The notes beneath the pieces are model-generated. The model worked only from the letters and a program-made list of their open reading frames with translations. It was not told the origin of the DNA and did not search any database. DNA of 64,000 bases, from assembly GCF_009769385.1 (NCBI RefSeq), contig NZ_VKAB01000027.1, positions 1 to 64,000 of the forward strand, written 5' to 3'. Positions 3,614 to 56,797 of the stretch are shown here, in pieces. The position numbers and the translations under genes are program-made. Origin of the DNA: Saccharothrix deserti. Lineage in GTDB: Bacteria; Actinomycetota; Actinomycetes; Mycobacteriales; Pseudonocardiaceae. The number at the start of each line of letters is the position of its first letter. Positions within the stretch are counted from its first letter, which is position 1.

Positions 3614-4066
3614 TCAGCGGGCGGGCGTGAGCGCGTCGAGGTGGGCGCGCAGCAGGGTGCTCAGCTCGTCGATCGAGCGTGCGATGCCGCCGTTGAGGGA
3701 GTAGTCGATCATCAGGTTGTTGGAGTCGGTGCCGCCGAAGCGGCGTGAATCGGTCTGCAGGCCGAAGCAGTCCGCGCCGCGGGCGCGGGCCATGCCGAGT
3801 TCCACGCAGCCGCCCTCGTCGGGGACGCGGCCGTCCAGGATGAACACGAAGATCGCGCACTCGGTGATCGCGGCGCAGTCCAGCTCGTAGAGCCGGCGCC
3901 GGACGGTGTCCTCGTCCAGGCCCTGGCGGACCAAGGGGGCGGCTTCGCCGCCGTCGCGCTGGGGCAGAAAGGTGTCGAGGCCGAGGGCGCGTACCGCGGC
4001 GTCAACTTGGAGGTTGAACCCTTTCTCCGCGTCGCAGAACAATGGTGCGGCGATGTATGCCTTCAT
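3614..4066 (-). CDS. nucleoside 2-deoxyribosyltransferase-like protein
   Basis: The protein is about 150 residues. It opens with MKAYIAAPLF, the typical first strand of nucleoside 2-deoxyribosyltransferases, and carries DEGGCVELGMARARG, which contains the family's nucleophilic Glu, and a C-terminal NNLMIDYSL. Family members move a deoxyribosyl group between bases or hydrolyse nucleotide N-glycosidic bonds. I prefer the ATG at 4066 over 4072 because GAGGAG is then well spaced. It follows the QueC-like gene by 33 bases, and context points to cleavage or exchange of a 7-deazaguanine-type base. This is inference. Confidence 0.75.
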   Translation of the reverse strand: MKAYIAAPLFCDAEKGFNLQVDAAVRALGLDTFLPQRDGGEAAPLVRQGLDEDTVRRRLYELDCAAITECAIFVFILDGRVPDEGGCVELGMARARGADCFGLQTDSRRFGGTDSNNLMIDYSLNGGIARSIDELSTLLRAHLDALTPAR

Positions 4067-48326: not shown

Positions 48327-49103
48327 CTACTTCGTCGACGTGTCCGCCGACTCGGTGGCCGTCGGGGCGAGCGAGTACTTCTTGGGCTTGTCGCTGGTGC
48401 GCACGGCGTAGCCGCTCTCGACCAGCTTCTCCAGCGCGTTGTGCACGGCACCCGAGGATCGGTTCAGCGCCTTGCCGATCGTGTTCGGGCTGAACTCGCC
48501 CGAGTTGTCGCGCAGGTAGTCCTCGACCATCCCGCGCAGCGCCCCCGGTGCCAACCGCTCGGGCTTCTCCTGTTGCCCGCCGTCCGCGCCCGACTCGCCA
48601 GCCACCTCCGGCTGGTCGTCGGTCGGCTGGTCGTCCGTGGGCTGGTCGTCCGTGGGCTGGTCGTCCGTGGGCTGGTCGTCCGTGGGCTGGTCGTCCGTGG
48701 GCTGGTCGTCGGTCGGCTGGTCGTCCGTGGGCTGGTCGTCGGTCGGCTGGTCGTCCGTGGGCTGGTCGTCCGTGGGCTGGTCGTCGGTCGGCTGGTCGTC
48801 CGTGGGCTGGTCGTCGGTCGGCTGGTCGTCCGTGGGTTGGTCGTCCGTGGTGATGGACCAGCGGTCGGCGGGGCGCGAACCCCCGTCGGCGATTCCGGTG
48901 GTGCGAGTGACGAGGCCGTCCTTCTCCCAGCGGGTGAGGAGCTTGGGAGCGGTCGATTTGCCGATTCCGGCGGCGGTGGACAGGGCGGCGGCGGTGCTGC
49001 CGGGGTTGTCCCGCAGTGCCTGCCACAGCTTCTCCTCGGTGTCCGTGCGCGGCTTCGCCGGGTCGGGGACGGAGCGCAGGGTGCGGGTCGTGGTGGTGGA
49101 CAT
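48327..49103 (-). CDS. two-winged-helix protein with TDDQP repeat linker
   Basis: The 258-residue protein starts at ATG 49103 with GAGGTAG upstream. The N-terminal winged helix (residues about 20-80) reads KLWQALRDNPGSTAAALSTA, then GKSTAPKLLTRWEKDGLV. A central linker of 16 perfect TDDQP units (about 90-170) follows. The C-terminal winged helix (ALRGMVEDYLRDN, NTIGKALNRSSGAVHNALEKL) resembles the N-terminus of the MoxR-type ATPase at 41631. It is probably a DNA-binding protein, with two DNA-binding ends joined by an acidic flexible linker. Confidence 0.78.
   Translation of the reverse strand: MSTTTTRTLRSVPDPAKPRTDTEEKLWQALRDNPGSTAAALSTAAGIGKSTAPKLLTRWEKDGLVTRTTGIADGGSRPADRWSITTDDQPTDDQPTDDQPTDDQPTDDQPTDDQPTDDQPTDDQPTDDQPTDDQPTDDQPTDDQPTDDQPTDDQPTDDQPTDDQPEVAGESGADGGQQEKPERLAPGALRGMVEDYLRDNSGEFSPNTIGKALNRSSGAVHNALEKLVESGYAVRTSDKPKKYSLAPTATESADTSTK
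48611..48850. repeat. 15-bp tandem repeat, 16 units
   Basis: GCTGGTCGTC recurs every 15 bases from 48611 to 48836; the unit is TCGTCCGTGGGCTGG with a second variant TCGTCGGTCGGCTGG. Read leftward it encodes TDDQP, so unit number can change without a frameshift. Confidence 0.9.
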
Positions 49104-49531
49104 GACTACCTCGCAGTGGTGACGTGTCGGGTGGGTGGTCATGCCCCGGCCGGAGCGGGTGCGGCCCCCGGTGCGCATCCGGTGGTTGTCGGGCCGCACG
49201 ACTATGGACGCTTCCTTCGGCGCATGAAGTCAAGCGGTACATCAAAAAAACACTTGTCTCGTGTGGACGGACACCGATCCGCCTGTGTCGTTGGTACAAA
49301 CAGGTCCACTTCGTTCGCGCATCACGCACCGGCATTGACATCCCGGTCCGCACGAAGCGTCCATACACGTCAGCCCGACCGACAAACCATTGGGAACAAA
49401 GGGGGTTGACGAATGCGCGACTTTCCCGCGCTCTCGCCGTGGGGCGGCCGGCGGTGCCGGGCCCGCGGTGCACACAGCACGGAACGGCGCCTCGCGTTCA
49501 CTAACCACGCCGCGCCGCAGGGGAAATCGTC
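49104..49531. promoter_or_regulatory. divergent intergenic region
   Basis: These 428 bases separate the leftward TDDQP gene from the rightward gene at 49532 and hold both promoters. A relatively AT-rich segment with an A7 run near 49243 suits a leftward promoter. I see no convincing gene or dyad. Confidence 0.45.
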
Positions 49532-51635: not shown

Positions 51636-51752
51636 CGCCCCCGGCCACCCCCCCGCCCCCCCCCCCGGGGCCGCCCCCCGCCCCCACCCCCCCCCCGGGC
51701 CCAACCCCGCGGGGGGGCGCGGGGCCCCCCCCCGCCCCGCCCCCCACGCCCC
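51636..51752. other. extreme G/C homopolymer tract
   Basis: About 117 bases almost entirely C and G, with runs of up to about ten C and seven G. It lies between the RAMA-type gene and the prim-pol gene. It is non-coding: all six frames are Pro/Gly/Arg/Ala repeats. It may be real or a collapsed or erroneous assembly region. Confidence 0.6.
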
Positions 51753-51776: not shown

Positions 51777-52760
51777 GTGCACACCAACGACATGCTCACC
51801 GTCGCCCTCGATGCCGTCGCGCGGGGCTGGCACGTCTTCCCCATCCGGCCCAACTCGAAGAAGCCGCCCGCTCTGCACGGCGAGGACGACTGTCCGCGTT
51901 CGGGAATCTGCGCCACCACCCACCAGGGATGGGAACAGCGAGCCATGAACGACCCCGACCAAGTGCGGTGGTTCTGGAACAGCCGCCGCTACAGCGGCTG
52001 CAACGTCGGCATCGCGGCCGGACGAAGCGGGCTGCTCGTGGTGGACATGGACACCCTCGACTCACCCGCCGACGTGCCCCCGGACGGCTGGAAACGGGAG
52101 GGGGTCCGGGACGGACGCGACGTGTTCACCGTGGTCTGCCAGCAGGCCGGTCAGCCGGTGCCGTGGGAGACGCTGACCGTCGACACCCCCAGCGGCGGCC
52201 GGCACCTCTACTTCCACGCACCCGAAGGCACGCAGCTGCGCAACACCCAGGGAGCCACCGGCAACGGACTCGGGTGGAAGGTCGACACCCGCGGCTGGGG
52301 CGGCTACGTCGTCGCCCCCGGATCGACCACCCCGACCGGCCGATACGAACTCGTGGAAGACCTCCCCGTGGCCGATCTGCCCACCTGGTTGGTCCACCGC
52401 CTGTCCCCCAAGCCCGTCACGACCACCACAGCGGCCCCTCAGATCGCCTCACAGCGGTTGCCCGCCTACGTCGACGCCGCTGTCCGGGGCGAGTGCCGAT
52501 ACGTCGCACAAGCCGCACCCAACGAGCACAACAGCGTCCTGTACGCCGCATCCGGGCAACTGGGCCAACTCGTCGGTGGCGGGATGCTCCCTGCGTTTCA
52601 AGCCGAACAAGCCTTGTACGCAGCCGCTACCCACATGATCAACGGACCGTGCCGGTGCACCGAACGCGAGATCCGCCGCGTGATCGAGAAGGGCTTGCGC
52701 GCCGGACAGCAACGCCCACGCACCGCACCCGCCGACCAAACCCGCCGAGGTGCCGCGTGA
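51777..52760 (+). CDS. bifunctional DNA primase/polymerase (prim-pol)
   Basis: The protein has about 327 residues, with GTG start and GGAAGGAG upstream. The N-terminal prim-pol domain reads ALDAVARGWHVFPIRPNSKK, SGCNVGIAAGRSGLLVVDMDT (the catalytic Asp pair, here in parts, residues about 70-90) and SGGRHLYF. The C-terminal region is helical, with a Cys-rich CRCTEREIRR that resembles a DNA-binding insert. It likely starts replication of the excised element. It overlaps the methyltransferase start (52757). Confidence 0.88.
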   Translation: MHTNDMLTVALDAVARGWHVFPIRPNSKKPPALHGEDDCPRSGICATTHQGWEQRAMNDPDQVRWFWNSRRYSGCNVGIAAGRSGLLVVDMDTLDSPADVPPDGWKREGVRDGRDVFTVVCQQAGQPVPWETLTVDTPSGGRHLYFHAPEGTQLRNTQGATGNGLGWKVDTRGWGGYVVAPGSTTPTGRYELVEDLPVADLPTWLVHRLSPKPVTTTTAAPQIASQRLPAYVDAAVRGECRYVAQAAPNEHNSVLYAASGQLGQLVGGGMLPAFQAEQALYAAATHMINGPCRCTEREIRRVIEKGLRAGQQRPRTAPADQTRRGAA

Positions 52761-53488
52761 ACGTCCTGGAGCTGTTCGCCGGAATCGGAGGCCTGTCCCT
52801 GGGCCTGGAGCGCGCCGGGATGCACGTAGTGGGCCAAGTCGAGATCGACCCGTTCTGCCAGCGCGTGCTGGCCCGACACTGGCCGGAGGTCCCCCGCCAT
52901 GACGACGTCCGCACCGCCGCCGAGTGGTGGCAGTCCCAACAGCGGCCCGTCGTGGACGTCGTCGCCGGCGGGTTTCCCTGCCAGCCCGTCAGCGACTCCG
53001 GACGGCGTCTCGGCACCGACGACCCCCGGTGGCTATGGCCCGCAATGCTCGCCGTCATCCTCGCCCTACGGCCCCGATGGGTCCTGTGGGAAAACGTGCC
53101 CGGTCTGCTCACCCGTGGACTTCACATCGTCCACGCCGACCTTGTTCGAGCCGGCTACCGACACCGCATCGGCCGTACCTCCGCTTGTGCAGTGGGTGCC
53201 CCACACCCACGTGAGCGGCTGTTCGGACTGGCCCACACCACGAGCATCGGATGCCAGTCGCGGTGGAGTCCTGGGCCGCGACCGGCACCACTGGAACCTC
53301 ACCGACGCGGTGCGCAACCGGGACGGCCGTGGACCGGTCAACCCCGACCTCATGGAGTGGCTTATGGGGTTTCCGCCGGGGTGGACCGACGTCGCGGACT
53401 CGGCAACGCCGTCGTGCCCACCGTCGCCGAACACATCGGCCGCCTGATCATCACCACAGACCGCGACGAACGGGACGGCGCAGCATGA
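52757..53488 (+). pseudogene. C5-cytosine DNA methyltransferase, frame-disrupted TRD
   Basis: In the first frame (GTG 52757) the N-terminal catalytic part is intact: LELFAGIGGLSLGLERAG (motif I), GGFPCQPVSDSG (IV, Cys nucleophile), WVLWENVPGL (VI) and RERLFGLA (VIII). After about 53225 the expected target-recognition sequence lies in another frame: SDWPTPRASDASRGG, NLTDAVRNRD and MEWLMGFPPGWTDV. Motif X (GLGNAVVPTVAEHIGRLI) is back in the first frame. Two compensating frame changes near 53225 and 53390 are implied. The stop overlaps the next start (ATGA). Confidence 0.75.
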
Positions 53489-55020
53489 GCACCACACGAA
53501 CACTGCACGCCGTTCCCGAAACCGACACCACCACCCCGGCGCCAGAGTGGGAAGCGCCGATGCCACTGGGCACCAGCCGCGCCGTCCCGCCCTTCCCGAT
53601 CGACGCGTTCCCGACGTGGCTGGCCGACCACGTCACCGCAGTCGCCAACCTCACCCAGACCCCGCCCGATCTCGCCGGATGCCTCGCCCTGGTGGCGTTG
53701 TCCACGGCGGCCGGCGGGCGGGTGCGGGTCCAGGTGCGGCCCGGTTGGGATGAGCCGGTCAACCTCTACTCCGTCGTCGTGCTCCCGCCCGCATCACGGA
53801 AATCCGCCGTGTTCAAGGCGATGACCCGGCCGATCCGCGCGGTGGAGAAGGAACTCGTCGCCGAGGCGAAAGCAGAGATCGAGTCAGCCCGTATCGGGCG
53901 ACGCGCCGCCGAAGAGTTCGCCGCCCGCGCGGAAAAGGCCGTGTTGTCGGCCGACCTGTCCGACCGTGACGCCGCGCTGGAAGCCGCGGTGAACGCCGCC
54001 ATGCAGGTCGACAAGAGCGCCATGCCGATCACCCCGCGGCTGATCGCCGACGACGCCACGCCGGAAGTCGTCGCGACTCTGCTGGCCGACCACGGCGGCC
54101 GGATCGCCGTGCTGTCGGCCGAAGGCGGGCTGTTCGGCACGCTCGCCGGCCGCTACTCGGGATCGCCGAACCTGGACGTGTTCCTCAAAGGCCACGCCGG
54201 TGACCTCCACCTGGTGGACCGGCAAGGACGGGAAGCCACCGCCGTCGAGGAACCCGCGATCACGTTGGGCCTGACCGTCCAGCCGTCGATCCTGGACGGT
54301 TTGGCCCGCAACGAAGCGTTCCGGGGAACCGGGCTGCTGGCCCGAATCATGTATTCCCTGCCCGTCAACACCGTGGGCAGCCGCATTTCCCGCCCCACCC
54401 CTGCGGCGCCCGAAATCGCCGACGCCTACGACACCCGCATCCGGTCCCTGGTACGCGAACTCGCCGAGTGGACCGACCCCGCCGTGCTCGTGTTCACCCC
54501 GGCCGCCGACGACCTCATGGCCGACCTGCAAGACGAGATCGAACCCCGCCTGCACCCCGTCACCGGCTCCTGGGCACACCTCGGCGACTGGGGCGGCAAA
54601 CAGGCCGGGCTCACCGCGCGCATCGCCGCCCTGCTCCACCTCGCCCACAACCCCACCAGCTGGGCCGGTGCCATCACCACCGACACCTTCACCGCAGCAC
54701 GCCGCATCACCGACTACGCCGCCGCCCACGCCCTCGCCGCGTTCGACCGCATGGGCAGCGACCCCGTCATCGACGACGCACAGGTAGTCCTGGACTGGAT
54801 CGAGCGTACCCACCCCACCTCGTTCACCGTCCGGGAGCTGTTCACCGCGATGAACCGCGCCAGGTTCAAGAAGGTCGGTGACCTCACCCCCGCCCTGGAC
54901 CTGCTCGAACAGCACGGCCACATCCACCACAGCCCGCCGCCCGAACGACGTGGACCCGGCCGCAAGCCGTCCCCGACGTACTACGTCCACCCCACCCACC
55001 GGGCCGGAGACCAGTCGTGA
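53485..55020 (+). CDS. DUF3987 / YfjI-type replication protein
   Basis: The 511-residue protein has FPTWLADHVTAVANLTQTPP, LPPASRKSAVFKAMTRPI (a Walker-like region), AVLSAEGGLFGTLAGRYSGS and LVDRQGREATAVEEPAITLG. These are signatures of DUF3987 proteins, which are found with primases on plasmids and integrative elements. The C-terminal 80 residues look like a winged helix (SFTVRELFTAMNRARFKKVG). It is coupled to the methyltransferase and is likely a replication helicase-like component. Confidence 0.85.
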   Translation: MSTTRTLHAVPETDTTTPAPEWEAPMPLGTSRAVPPFPIDAFPTWLADHVTAVANLTQTPPDLAGCLALVALSTAAGGRVRVQVRPGWDEPVNLYSVVVLPPASRKSAVFKAMTRPIRAVEKELVAEAKAEIESARIGRRAAEEFAARAEKAVLSADLSDRDAALEAAVNAAMQVDKSAMPITPRLIADDATPEVVATLLADHGGRIAVLSAEGGLFGTLAGRYSGSPNLDVFLKGHAGDLHLVDRQGREATAVEEPAITLGLTVQPSILDGLARNEAFRGTGLLARIMYSLPVNTVGSRISRPTPAAPEIADAYDTRIRSLVRELAEWTDPAVLVFTPAADDLMADLQDEIEPRLHPVTGSWAHLGDWGGKQAGLTARIAALLHLAHNPTSWAGAITTDTFTAARRITDYAAAHALAAFDRMGSDPVIDDAQVVLDWIERTHPTSFTVRELFTAMNRARFKKVGDLTPALDLLEQHGHIHHSPPPERRGPGRKPSPTYYVHPTHRAGDQS

Positions 55021-55024
55021 CCCT

Positions 55025-55360
55025 CCGCAGAATCCGCACAATCCGCAGAATCCCGCCGACCGACCTGTTTCCGCAGATCAAGCAGGGTGCGCCCCGAACG
55101 GCCGTGCTCTCCGCAGAACTTCCGCAAAACCTCCGCAGAATCCACCAGGCCCCACCCACCGGGTGCCCAGCACGCGGATCACCTGGAGCACCCGACGAGG
55201 GCAGGTCCGGCAGCCGCCCACCCCGGCCGCGACCGGCCCCGTGAATTCTGCGGAGGTTTTGCGGAGATTCTGCGGAGTCTGACCATGATCACCCCACAAC
55301 CTGCCTACCAGCACAAACGACCACATCCGGTCAATTCTGCGGATTCTGCGGATTCTGCGG
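55025..55360. repeat. symmetric palindromic iteron array (12 core sites)
   Basis: Nine-base sites occur in four groups: three tandem CCGCA(G/C)AAT at 55025-55051; three (CCGCA(G/A)AA(C/T)) 11 bp apart at 55111-55141; three inverted (ATTCTGCGG/GTTTTGCGG) 11 bp apart at 55245-55275; and three tandem ATTCTGCGG at 55334-55360. The two halves mirror each other about 55193 to within one base. A single CCGCAGATC lies at 55071. The array fills the gap between the replication gene and the integrase, including the integrase leader. Confidence 0.9.
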
Positions 55361-55380
55361 AGGCCCAAGGAGCCCCAGCC

Positions 55381-56586
55381 ATGCCCAAGCCCGGACGACG
55401 TCCACCGATCGGCGTCGAACTGTCCGACGACATCGAGCACCTCCCCGACCGTCCGACGCCCTACCGCGCCCGCGTCCGCTGGACCGACCCCGCGACCGGC
55501 AAACGCCCTTCGTTGTCCAAGTCGTGCATGACTGAAGAGCAGGCACAAGCCTGGATCGACGCCATGAAGCGCGCGGCGGCCGGCGGAGTGGACCCCAGCG
55601 CCGGAGAGATGACGCTCACCGACTACGGCAACGCCAACATGCCGTTGGCGCTCCGCGGCCTGGAAGCCAAGACCACCGATCCCTACCTGGCCGGATGGCG
55701 CAAACGCGTCGTGCCGACCATCGGGCACATCCCCGTCCAGATGGTCACGCACGGCGTCGTCGACCGCGCCGTACACGGCTGGATCGCCGACGAGCACAGC
55801 CGCTCGACCGTGAAGAACAGCATCGCCGTCCTAGTCCGCGTCATGGAACAGGCGTTGCGCGACGAGATCATCGACCGCAACCCGGCCAGGATCACCGGAT
55901 GGCAGCGCGAGTACGCCCGCGCCGAAGACGAGCTGGACGACCCGCGATCCCTCGCGCTGGCCGACTGGACGGCGCTCACCCACCTTGCCGATGCGCTGGT
56001 CGCCAGTTCCTCGAACGAGTACGAGGGCTGGCGCGACGTCGTGCTGTTCGCCGCGTGCACCGCGGCACGCATTGGCGAAGTGTCCGGCTGCCGCGTAAAA
56101 GACCTCGACACCACCGAGTGGACCTGGAACGTGCGGCGCCAGACCACCAACGGACCGGGCGGACTGATCGACAAAGGCACCAAGGGCAAACGCGCACGCC
56201 GCGTCCCCATCATCGAAGAGATCCGCGAACTCGTGGAACGACGAATCGCCGAGACGGACGGCACCGGAGACGCACGCCTGTTCACCGGCCCACGAGGCGG
56301 CCGGATCACCACCGCCGTACTCCGCGACGCCACCCACTGGGACGACGTCGTCAACAAGCTCGGATACGAACACCTACGCCGCCACGACCTGCGCCACACC
56401 GGGCTGACGTGGATGGCCGACGCGGGCGTGCCGGTCCACCACCTCCAGAAGATCGCCGGACACGGGTCTCTGACCACCACACAGCGCTACCTGCATCCCG
56501 ACCGCCGATCGGTCACCGACGCGGGCGCGCTGCTCTCCCAGCACCTCCAGAAGTCCACGCAAACCCCGCGGCTGCGCGCCGTCTAA
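55381..56586 (+). CDS. int: tyrosine recombinase (integrase)
   Basis: The protein has about 401 residues. I chose ATG 55381 because AAGGAG lies upstream. The N-terminal arm (residues about 20-60) is an AP2-like segment with YRARVRWTDPATGKRP. A SAM-like core-binding domain covers about 80-165. The catalytic residues are R in AARIGEV, K in TKGKRARRVP, H-R in RRHDLRHTGLTWMA, H in IAGHGSL and Y in TQRYLHP. The stop is 137 bases before the tRNA-Pro 3' end, as for elements integrated into tRNA genes. Confidence 0.95.
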   Translation: MPKPGRRPPIGVELSDDIEHLPDRPTPYRARVRWTDPATGKRPSLSKSCMTEEQAQAWIDAMKRAAAGGVDPSAGEMTLTDYGNANMPLALRGLEAKTTDPYLAGWRKRVVPTIGHIPVQMVTHGVVDRAVHGWIADEHSRSTVKNSIAVLVRVMEQALRDEIIDRNPARITGWQREYARAEDELDDPRSLALADWTALTHLADALVASSSNEYEGWRDVVLFAACTAARIGEVSGCRVKDLDTTEWTWNVRRQTTNGPGGLIDKGTKGKRARRVPIIEEIRELVERRIAETDGTGDARLFTGPRGGRITTAVLRDATHWDDVVNKLGYEHLRRHDLRHTGLTWMADAGVPVHHLQKIAGHGSLTTTQRYLHPDRRSVTDAGALLSQHLQKSTQTPRLRAV

Positions 56587-56671
56587 CCACGTCTCACAGC
56601 CCCCGGTCCACAAATGGTCCACAAAACCAGGCTGTGACGATCTTGGACATGATCCACATCCGGGCACGAAA

Positions 56672-56713: not shown

Positions 56714-56723
56714 CTTCAGACCG

Positions 56724-56797
<74 letters not shown>

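Follow-up and report, generated by a model that had tools for sequence, protein, structure and literature searches.

The window, by which we mean the entire 64,000-nucleotide stretch of Saccharothrix deserti DNA that was analysed (contig C21), contains, in this order, genes for a bifunctional primase-polymerase (Prim-Pol), a DNA cytosine methylase and a DUF3987 protein, an array of short repeats, a tyrosine integrase gene and tRNA-Pro(GGG). The Prim-Pol gene (plus strand, 51792-52760 when counted from the first ATG) matches PF09250 with an E value of 1.6e-42; its reading frame is open from 51624, and the initial part corresponds to a C/G-rich run outside the conserved element. The DUF3987 gene, which encodes the proposed initiator, occupies 53485-55020 on the plus strand (PF13148, E 2.7e-102; PHROG "DNA helicase", E 4e-64). 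The methylase gene between them (52760-53488) looks like an extra insertion, since the Prim-Pol and DUF3987 matches are adjacent in a relative (L211) that lacks it at that place. Beyond the array come the integrase gene (plus strand, 55381-56586; PF00589, E 5.3e-23), a neighbor that we do not propose as the binder of the array, and the tRNA gene (56723-56797), whose 3' end constitutes the attachment core (minus strand, 56723-56753). Elsewhere in the window, the minus strand at 48327-49199 encodes a protein whose two ends give MarR-like and TrmB-like helix-turn-helix matches, with a long DQPTDDQP repeat separating the two.

Among the traits of AICEs, a tyrosine integrase, 31-bp att direct repeats derived from tRNA-Pro, and Prim-Pol (PF09250) are present. 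On a second contig, C22, the 31-bp 3' end of tRNA-Pro occurs three times without a mismatch (at 3795, 34533 and 53201; L005-L008), so that at least two elements stand in tandem at one tRNA gene. The array-bearing element is 18.7 kb long, with att sites at C22:34533 and C22:53201, and the element preceding it carries its own Prim-Pol. C22 also encodes a 679-aa protein matching the FtsK/SpoIIIE PHROG (E 4e-12), for which Pfam returned only a sub-threshold DUF87 match. While the absence of a xis gene, previously noted, holds for the surroundings of the array, it may not extend to the whole element, since an HTH_17 protein on C22 matches the excisionase family phrog_66 (E 8e-8). To the right of window position 51,703, C21 and C22 agree at 99.9% over 12.3 kb, and the last 20 kb of the two contigs are identical; we consequently rejected the C22 copy as an independent second element, and the duplication is probably contig redundancy. 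To the left, the window departs from the conserved element where C22 stays colinear with relatives: upstream of Prim-Pol, three relatives match the C22 version only (72-90% identity in the matched pieces), and the DNA match of the window to a relative begins at 51,737. Because the two contigs agree only rightward and the left part of C22 alone is matched in relatives, the window to the left of ~51,703 is probably a wrong join (a contig chimera) at a C/G-rich low-complexity run, although it may be a real variant. One motif, GACCTGCNNAAACNNC, occurs at 15 places in the same genome and is thus not confined to the element.

Twelve CCGCAGAA-type sites, hereafter iterons, form a near-exact mirror after the DUF3987 gene. 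On the plus strand, a left outer block (55025-55050) contains three iterons at 9-bp spacing, starting at 55025, 55034 and 55043, and a left inner block (55111-55140) contains three at 11-bp spacing, starting at 55111, 55122 and 55133. Beyond a centre spanning 55141-55245, the inverted iterons follow on the minus strand, in a right inner block (55246-55275; 11-bp spacing, starts at 55246, 55257 and 55268) and a right outer block (55335-55360; 9-bp spacing, starts at 55335, 55344 and 55353). We could thus confirm the twelve sites at the coordinates given in the earlier note, and its symmetry point of ~55193 was borne out by the centres of the outer (55192.5) and inner (55193) sets. The inner blocks (55109-55143 and 55243-55277) are indeed complementary at 32 of 35 positions, as the same note had it, and the outer blocks (55022-55051 and 55334-55363) at 29 of 30. 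A generic mirror-site score reaches 12.5 for this region, versus a maximum of 7.0 among 1100 dinucleotide shuffles (20 for each of 55 such regions). The gaps between outer and inner blocks hold a second conserved motif, GTTTnnGCnGGTCA, present as GTTTCCGCAGATCA in the left gap (plus strand, 55067-55080) and as an inverted copy in the right gap (minus strand, 55306-55318). The right gap further contains a GTGATCATGG motif (minus strand, 55283-55292), which was also recognised by eye in the right gaps of many relatives. The CCGCAGAT at 55071 was considered as a thirteenth iteron and left out of the count because it falls within the left copy of GTTTnnGCnGGTCA.

When the DUF3987 protein was searched in 390 genomes of the family, matches with E values up to 1e-30 were found in 49. 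Fifty-three downstream loci, the best 80 of 232 relatives from a scan of genome contigs, a Streptomyces plasmid and the window made up 135 regions, or 109 distinct ones once those with the same first 120 nt after the stop codon were merged (near-duplicates such as L058/L059 were kept). We applied a strict detector that looks for three 8-mers at 9-bp steps followed by three inverted ones and passes scores of at least 40. A mirrored 3x9-bp iteron pair lies near the 3' end of DUF3987 in 78 of the 109 distinct Actinomycetota loci, and none of 2180 shuffled controls passed (maximum 38). The array that the earlier note had suggested looking for in other DUF3987 elements hence recurs, and the idea that it is unique to this strain, one half of what that note had held would refute it, is rejected. 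Its first block starts between -48 and +32 bp from the end of the DUF3987 stop codon in all but two of the 78 loci, the exceptions being L066 (+509) and L098 (+181). There are 44 long arrays, 32 compact 3+3 arrays and two long arrays with a wide centre (L055 and L068), in which the outer blocks start ~700 bp apart and the centre holds a small ORF, different in each (622-1020 in L055 and 522-941 in L068, encoding 132 and 139 aa).

The array test by the strict detector failed at 31 of the 109 loci, three of which (L103, L130 and L175) pass a looser one. A whole-locus scan of 23 of these 31, with 4-kb flanks where available, gave seven scores of 38-40, none beside the stop codon, which we did not count as arrays (null maximum, 37 in 69 shuffles). 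Around the stop codon of the second DUF3987 gene of the same genome (L067, on contig C1), the stretch from -90 to +900 bp holds no array. An 18.4-kb circular Streptomyces plasmid record shows a similar, less regular array after DUF3987, and in the 850 bp following the YfjI relative of an E. coli plasmid no 8-mer occurs in more than two copies. With that region and the array-less DUF3987 loci, the notion that such arrays accompany DUF3987 in all phyla is unsupported. A Prim-Pol gene was detected upstream at 16 of 55 distinct named loci with two queries, probably an undercount. In Dactylosporangium roseum, three DUF3987 loci (L147, L148 and L149) with near-equal match scores lie ~8.1 kb apart on one chromosome, and are apparently tandem elements. 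Two phages (L205 and L206) have distant DUF3987 genes followed by TGACAAAA-type repeats that flank a stretch rich in AT, much as in a PICI origin; L206 has its two sides inverted, and in L205 the orientations are mixed.

Among 43 long arrays, when sites with up to two mismatches are counted, 23 have 6+6 sites and the others between 4 and 8 in each half. Of 167 inner steps, 127 measure 10 or 11 bp. The distance from outer to inner block falls mostly into two classes that differ by about one helical turn, one of 65-69 bp (58 of 86 halves) and one of 55-59 bp (17 halves). In a set of 39 long arrays, which leaves out L177, L180, L182, L098 and L085, AT content is 50% in the iterons, 27% in the centre and 28-31% in the flanks; the centre, of variable length and on average GC-rich, contains no AT-rich melting region. 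The GTTTnnGCnGGTCA motif, counted on either strand with three substitutions allowed, was found in 27 of 39 left gaps and 29 of 39 right gaps, versus 46 of 780 flank segments.

What kind of protein is encoded next to the array? An AlphaFold2 model of DUF3987 (mean pLDDT 82.7) resembles an MCM-like AAA+ fold with a C-terminal winged helix (residues 427-501). The best match of this predicted model in VIA-align is to MCM helicases (6mii_A; Z 17.8, rmsd 3.7, 270 residues aligned). Foldseek alone gave no match below E 0.001 for the model, and a sequence search of solved structures with alignment A1 gave no relevant match. The canonical Walker A motif is GxxxxGK[S/T]. It is absent from the 23 DUF3987 proteins aligned, in which the nucleotide-binding loop instead reads PxxRK[S/T], without the usual glycines and with P102, R105 and K106 invariant; the ATPase activity of DUF3987 is therefore not assured. 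The accessible portion of one publication predicts DUF3987 to be a helicase and describes no origin for it (PMC5862659), and our search of the open-access literature found no publication on a DUF3987 origin.

The iteron letters vary between loci together with this winged helix. The units reduce to NNNNCAGAA with a variable triplet, and CCG-, GGA-, TGA- and TGC-CAGAA types occur across loci. Covariation was analysed in 73 of the 78 array loci, L098, L081, L088, L089 and L099 being dropped because the protein was partial or its C terminus out of frame. In a partial Mantel test, the iteron correlates with the winged helix given the ATPase domain (0.349, 0 of 5000 permutations as high), and the converse value, for the ATPase domain given the winged helix, is -0.154. 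Among 400 columns x 3 bases, the top five pairs all involve winged-helix residues 454, 457 and 458. Of 26 proteins with Arg454, 25 have a G-type triplet, with G as its middle base (the exception is L096), and G is found there in none of the 47 proteins lacking Arg454, a rule derived by screening these same 73 mutually related proteins. On a tree of the ATPase domain the two traits change six and five times, and four supported independent pairs can be drawn, three or all four of which agree, never opposed, with a median sign-test p of 0.125 (0.05 is beyond reach with four pairs). Eight proteins beyond the set also follow the rule, seven with Arg and G-type iterons (L103, L100-L102, L204, L205 and L206) and one with Gln and a non-G iteron (L207), with the provisos that L103 was known before the rule was formed, that registers outside the set were assigned by eye and that L100-L102 offer one or two sites each when the pattern is counted. 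In the AlphaFold2 model, the covarying residues form the end of the second helix of the winged helix and the following turn. Such domains usually read DNA through another of their helices. Anatomy and covariation together establish, at the level of sequence, that DUF3987 is the gene to which the array belongs and that array and winged helix co-evolve.

We therefore come to what the array might do. The reading that we favor, with a probability of about 0.8, is that it is the replication origin of the integrated mobile element, bound by the DUF3987 initiator encoded just upstream. This was among the options listed in the earlier note, and both the conservation of the array with DUF3987 and the covariation support it. 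The array on the Streptomyces plasmid record and the resemblance of the model to MCM also speak for it, while the array-less loci, the lack of an AT-rich melting region, the atypical nucleotide-binding loop, the position of the covarying residues outside the usual DNA-reading helix and the E. coli YfjI relative speak against it. As the covariation suggests, the C-terminal winged helix would read NNNNCAGAA, with the variable triplet serving as a specificity tag. DUF3987 protomers would assemble on both inverted half-arrays, each made of 3x9 bp plus 3x11 bp, their MCM-like ATPase ring, to judge from the fold, would open and unwind DNA, and the upstream-encoded Prim-Pol, to go by the gene content, would prime synthesis on the excised circle.

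The earlier note had also envisaged arm-type binding sites of the tyrosine integrase. Integrases do use repeated arm sites, and the array stops only 20 bp before the start codon of int. This reading is nevertheless contradicted by several findings and is highly improbable. The att core lies ~1.4 kb away. In L051-L055, the DUF3987 proteins are 84-86% identical to that of the window and the array is of the same kind, but the integrases are only ~24-29% identical over the aligned part (a profile identifies these distant proteins as tyrosine integrases). Conversely, in L062, where the integrase is 76% identical to the window's, the array ~1.8 kb from it, beside its own DUF3987, is made of TGACAGAA. 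Across the 55 integrase-bearing elements, iteron distance follows the winged helix (r 0.433), the ATPase domain less closely (0.245), and shows no correlation with the integrase (0.035), with a partial r of 0.433 for the winged helix given the integrase (0 of 5000 permutations as high) and of -0.035 for the integrase given the winged helix. Better candidates for arm sites are the GGTCCACAAA repeats arranged in tandem between the int and tRNA genes (plus strand, 56605-56628), which sit in a stretch 83% matched in L211. Nearly negligible is a partition, or centromere-like, site. Plasmid partition loci also carry iterated inverted sites, but the protein covarying with the array is helicase-like in its fold, and a Pfam scan of 20 ORFs recognised no partition gene.

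A role of the array as an operator, through which DUF3987 would act mainly as a repressor or switch of int/xis, or of its own operon, and not start replication, appears unlikely. It would suit the compact 3+3 arrays, which are operator-like, and the many elements, not all, in which the array fills the leader of int or xis. However, int is distant from the array in L062 and L064 and was not found in the downstream stretch, short in some cases, at 18 of the 32 loci with compact arrays and 4 of the 44 with long ones, and an operator would not need as many as twelve sites in two halves. Moreover, as far as the consulted part of PMC7581432 goes, such repeats serve in other mobile elements as origins to which helicase initiators bind. 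Regulation of int may be an added side role. The third option of the earlier note, a joint switch between replication and integration, would likewise concern that leader, which the array fills in many elements but not in all. A DNA or RNA stem-loop with pairing arms, either a terminator or an origin of the kind proposed for pRN1 3' of its primase-helicase gene (in the available text of PMC4234260), would explain why the arms are so strongly complementary and why mirrored sites match each other slightly better than non-mirrored ones do (0.73 mismatches against 1.00 in long arrays, and 0.92 against 1.10 in compact ones). It is nevertheless quite improbable, as the distance between outer-arm starts ranges from 40 to 716 bp across loci, an ORF separates the halves in L055 and L068, the letters of the arms track the winged helix, and a stem has no need of sites stepped by 9 and mostly 10-11 bp.

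An origin bound by DUF3987 would give a large and little-annotated class of integrative elements in actinobacteria a concrete candidate for both origin and initiator, and could serve as a narrow-host replicon for actinomycetes. The same mirror design recurs in many related bacteria, its repeat letters apparently matched to each element's own protein, and the residue/base rule lends itself to a test by single-residue swap. We can tentatively go one step further, to a possibility that we would bet against, in which two MCM-like hexamers assemble head to head without a separate loader, the six sites of each half (three at 9 bp and three at 10-11 bp) serving one ring, and the code linking residue 454 with the triplet's middle base allows replication specificity to diverge between elements, which can then share a cell. 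Should each half with its six sites indeed hold one ring, bacteria would have here a simple counterpart of the MCM double hexamer that loads itself.

Several known systems share features with this module. The ORF904 protein of pRN1 is likewise an initiator of prim-pol/helicase/winged-helix type, and the putative origin 3' of its gene is an inverted repeat; in the part of PMC4234260 available, in contrast, that origin is described as a structural stem-loop and recognised motifs are not identified. It is speculation on our part that the arms of the pRN1 stem-loop are also paired protein sites. In the RepPP-type AICE SLP1 (SCO4617-SCO4618), an actinomycete integrative element, the Prim-Pol gene also adjoins the replication gene, but the sections of PMC3218068 accessible to us mention no such array. 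The Cch/Cch2 modules of SCCmec similarly pair a helicase with a primase-polymerase, and the C-terminal domain of Cch2 attaches to direct repeats that lie downstream of the operon (according to the available portion of PMC7581432). They differ in that Cch2 has a Primase_Cterm/D5-type domain and Cch a DUF927, and only three iterons were found for Cch2. The closest parallel is with SaPI/PICI rep-ori modules, whose origin lies directly 3' of the initiator gene and includes two sets of short iterons, around an AT-rich region in PICIs (in the accessible parts of PMC6092414 and PMC7581432). Here this layout is reproduced in the position of the repeats only (76 of 78 loci). Reading of the iterons by the C-terminal domain of the initiator, another trait of these modules, has its counterpart here in the strong covariation. 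The initiator belongs to the DUF3987 family, the geometry is a mirrored 3x9 + 3x11, there is no AT-rich centre, and the elements, which carry Prim-Pol, an integrase and an FtsK-like gene, are not phage satellites as far as seen. Because of the other protein family, the mirrored geometry and the lack of an AT-rich centre, we have not filed the module as a member of the SaPI, PICI or SCCmec groups. The best reading, by analogy, is that it would work like the SaPI/PICI rep-ori modules.
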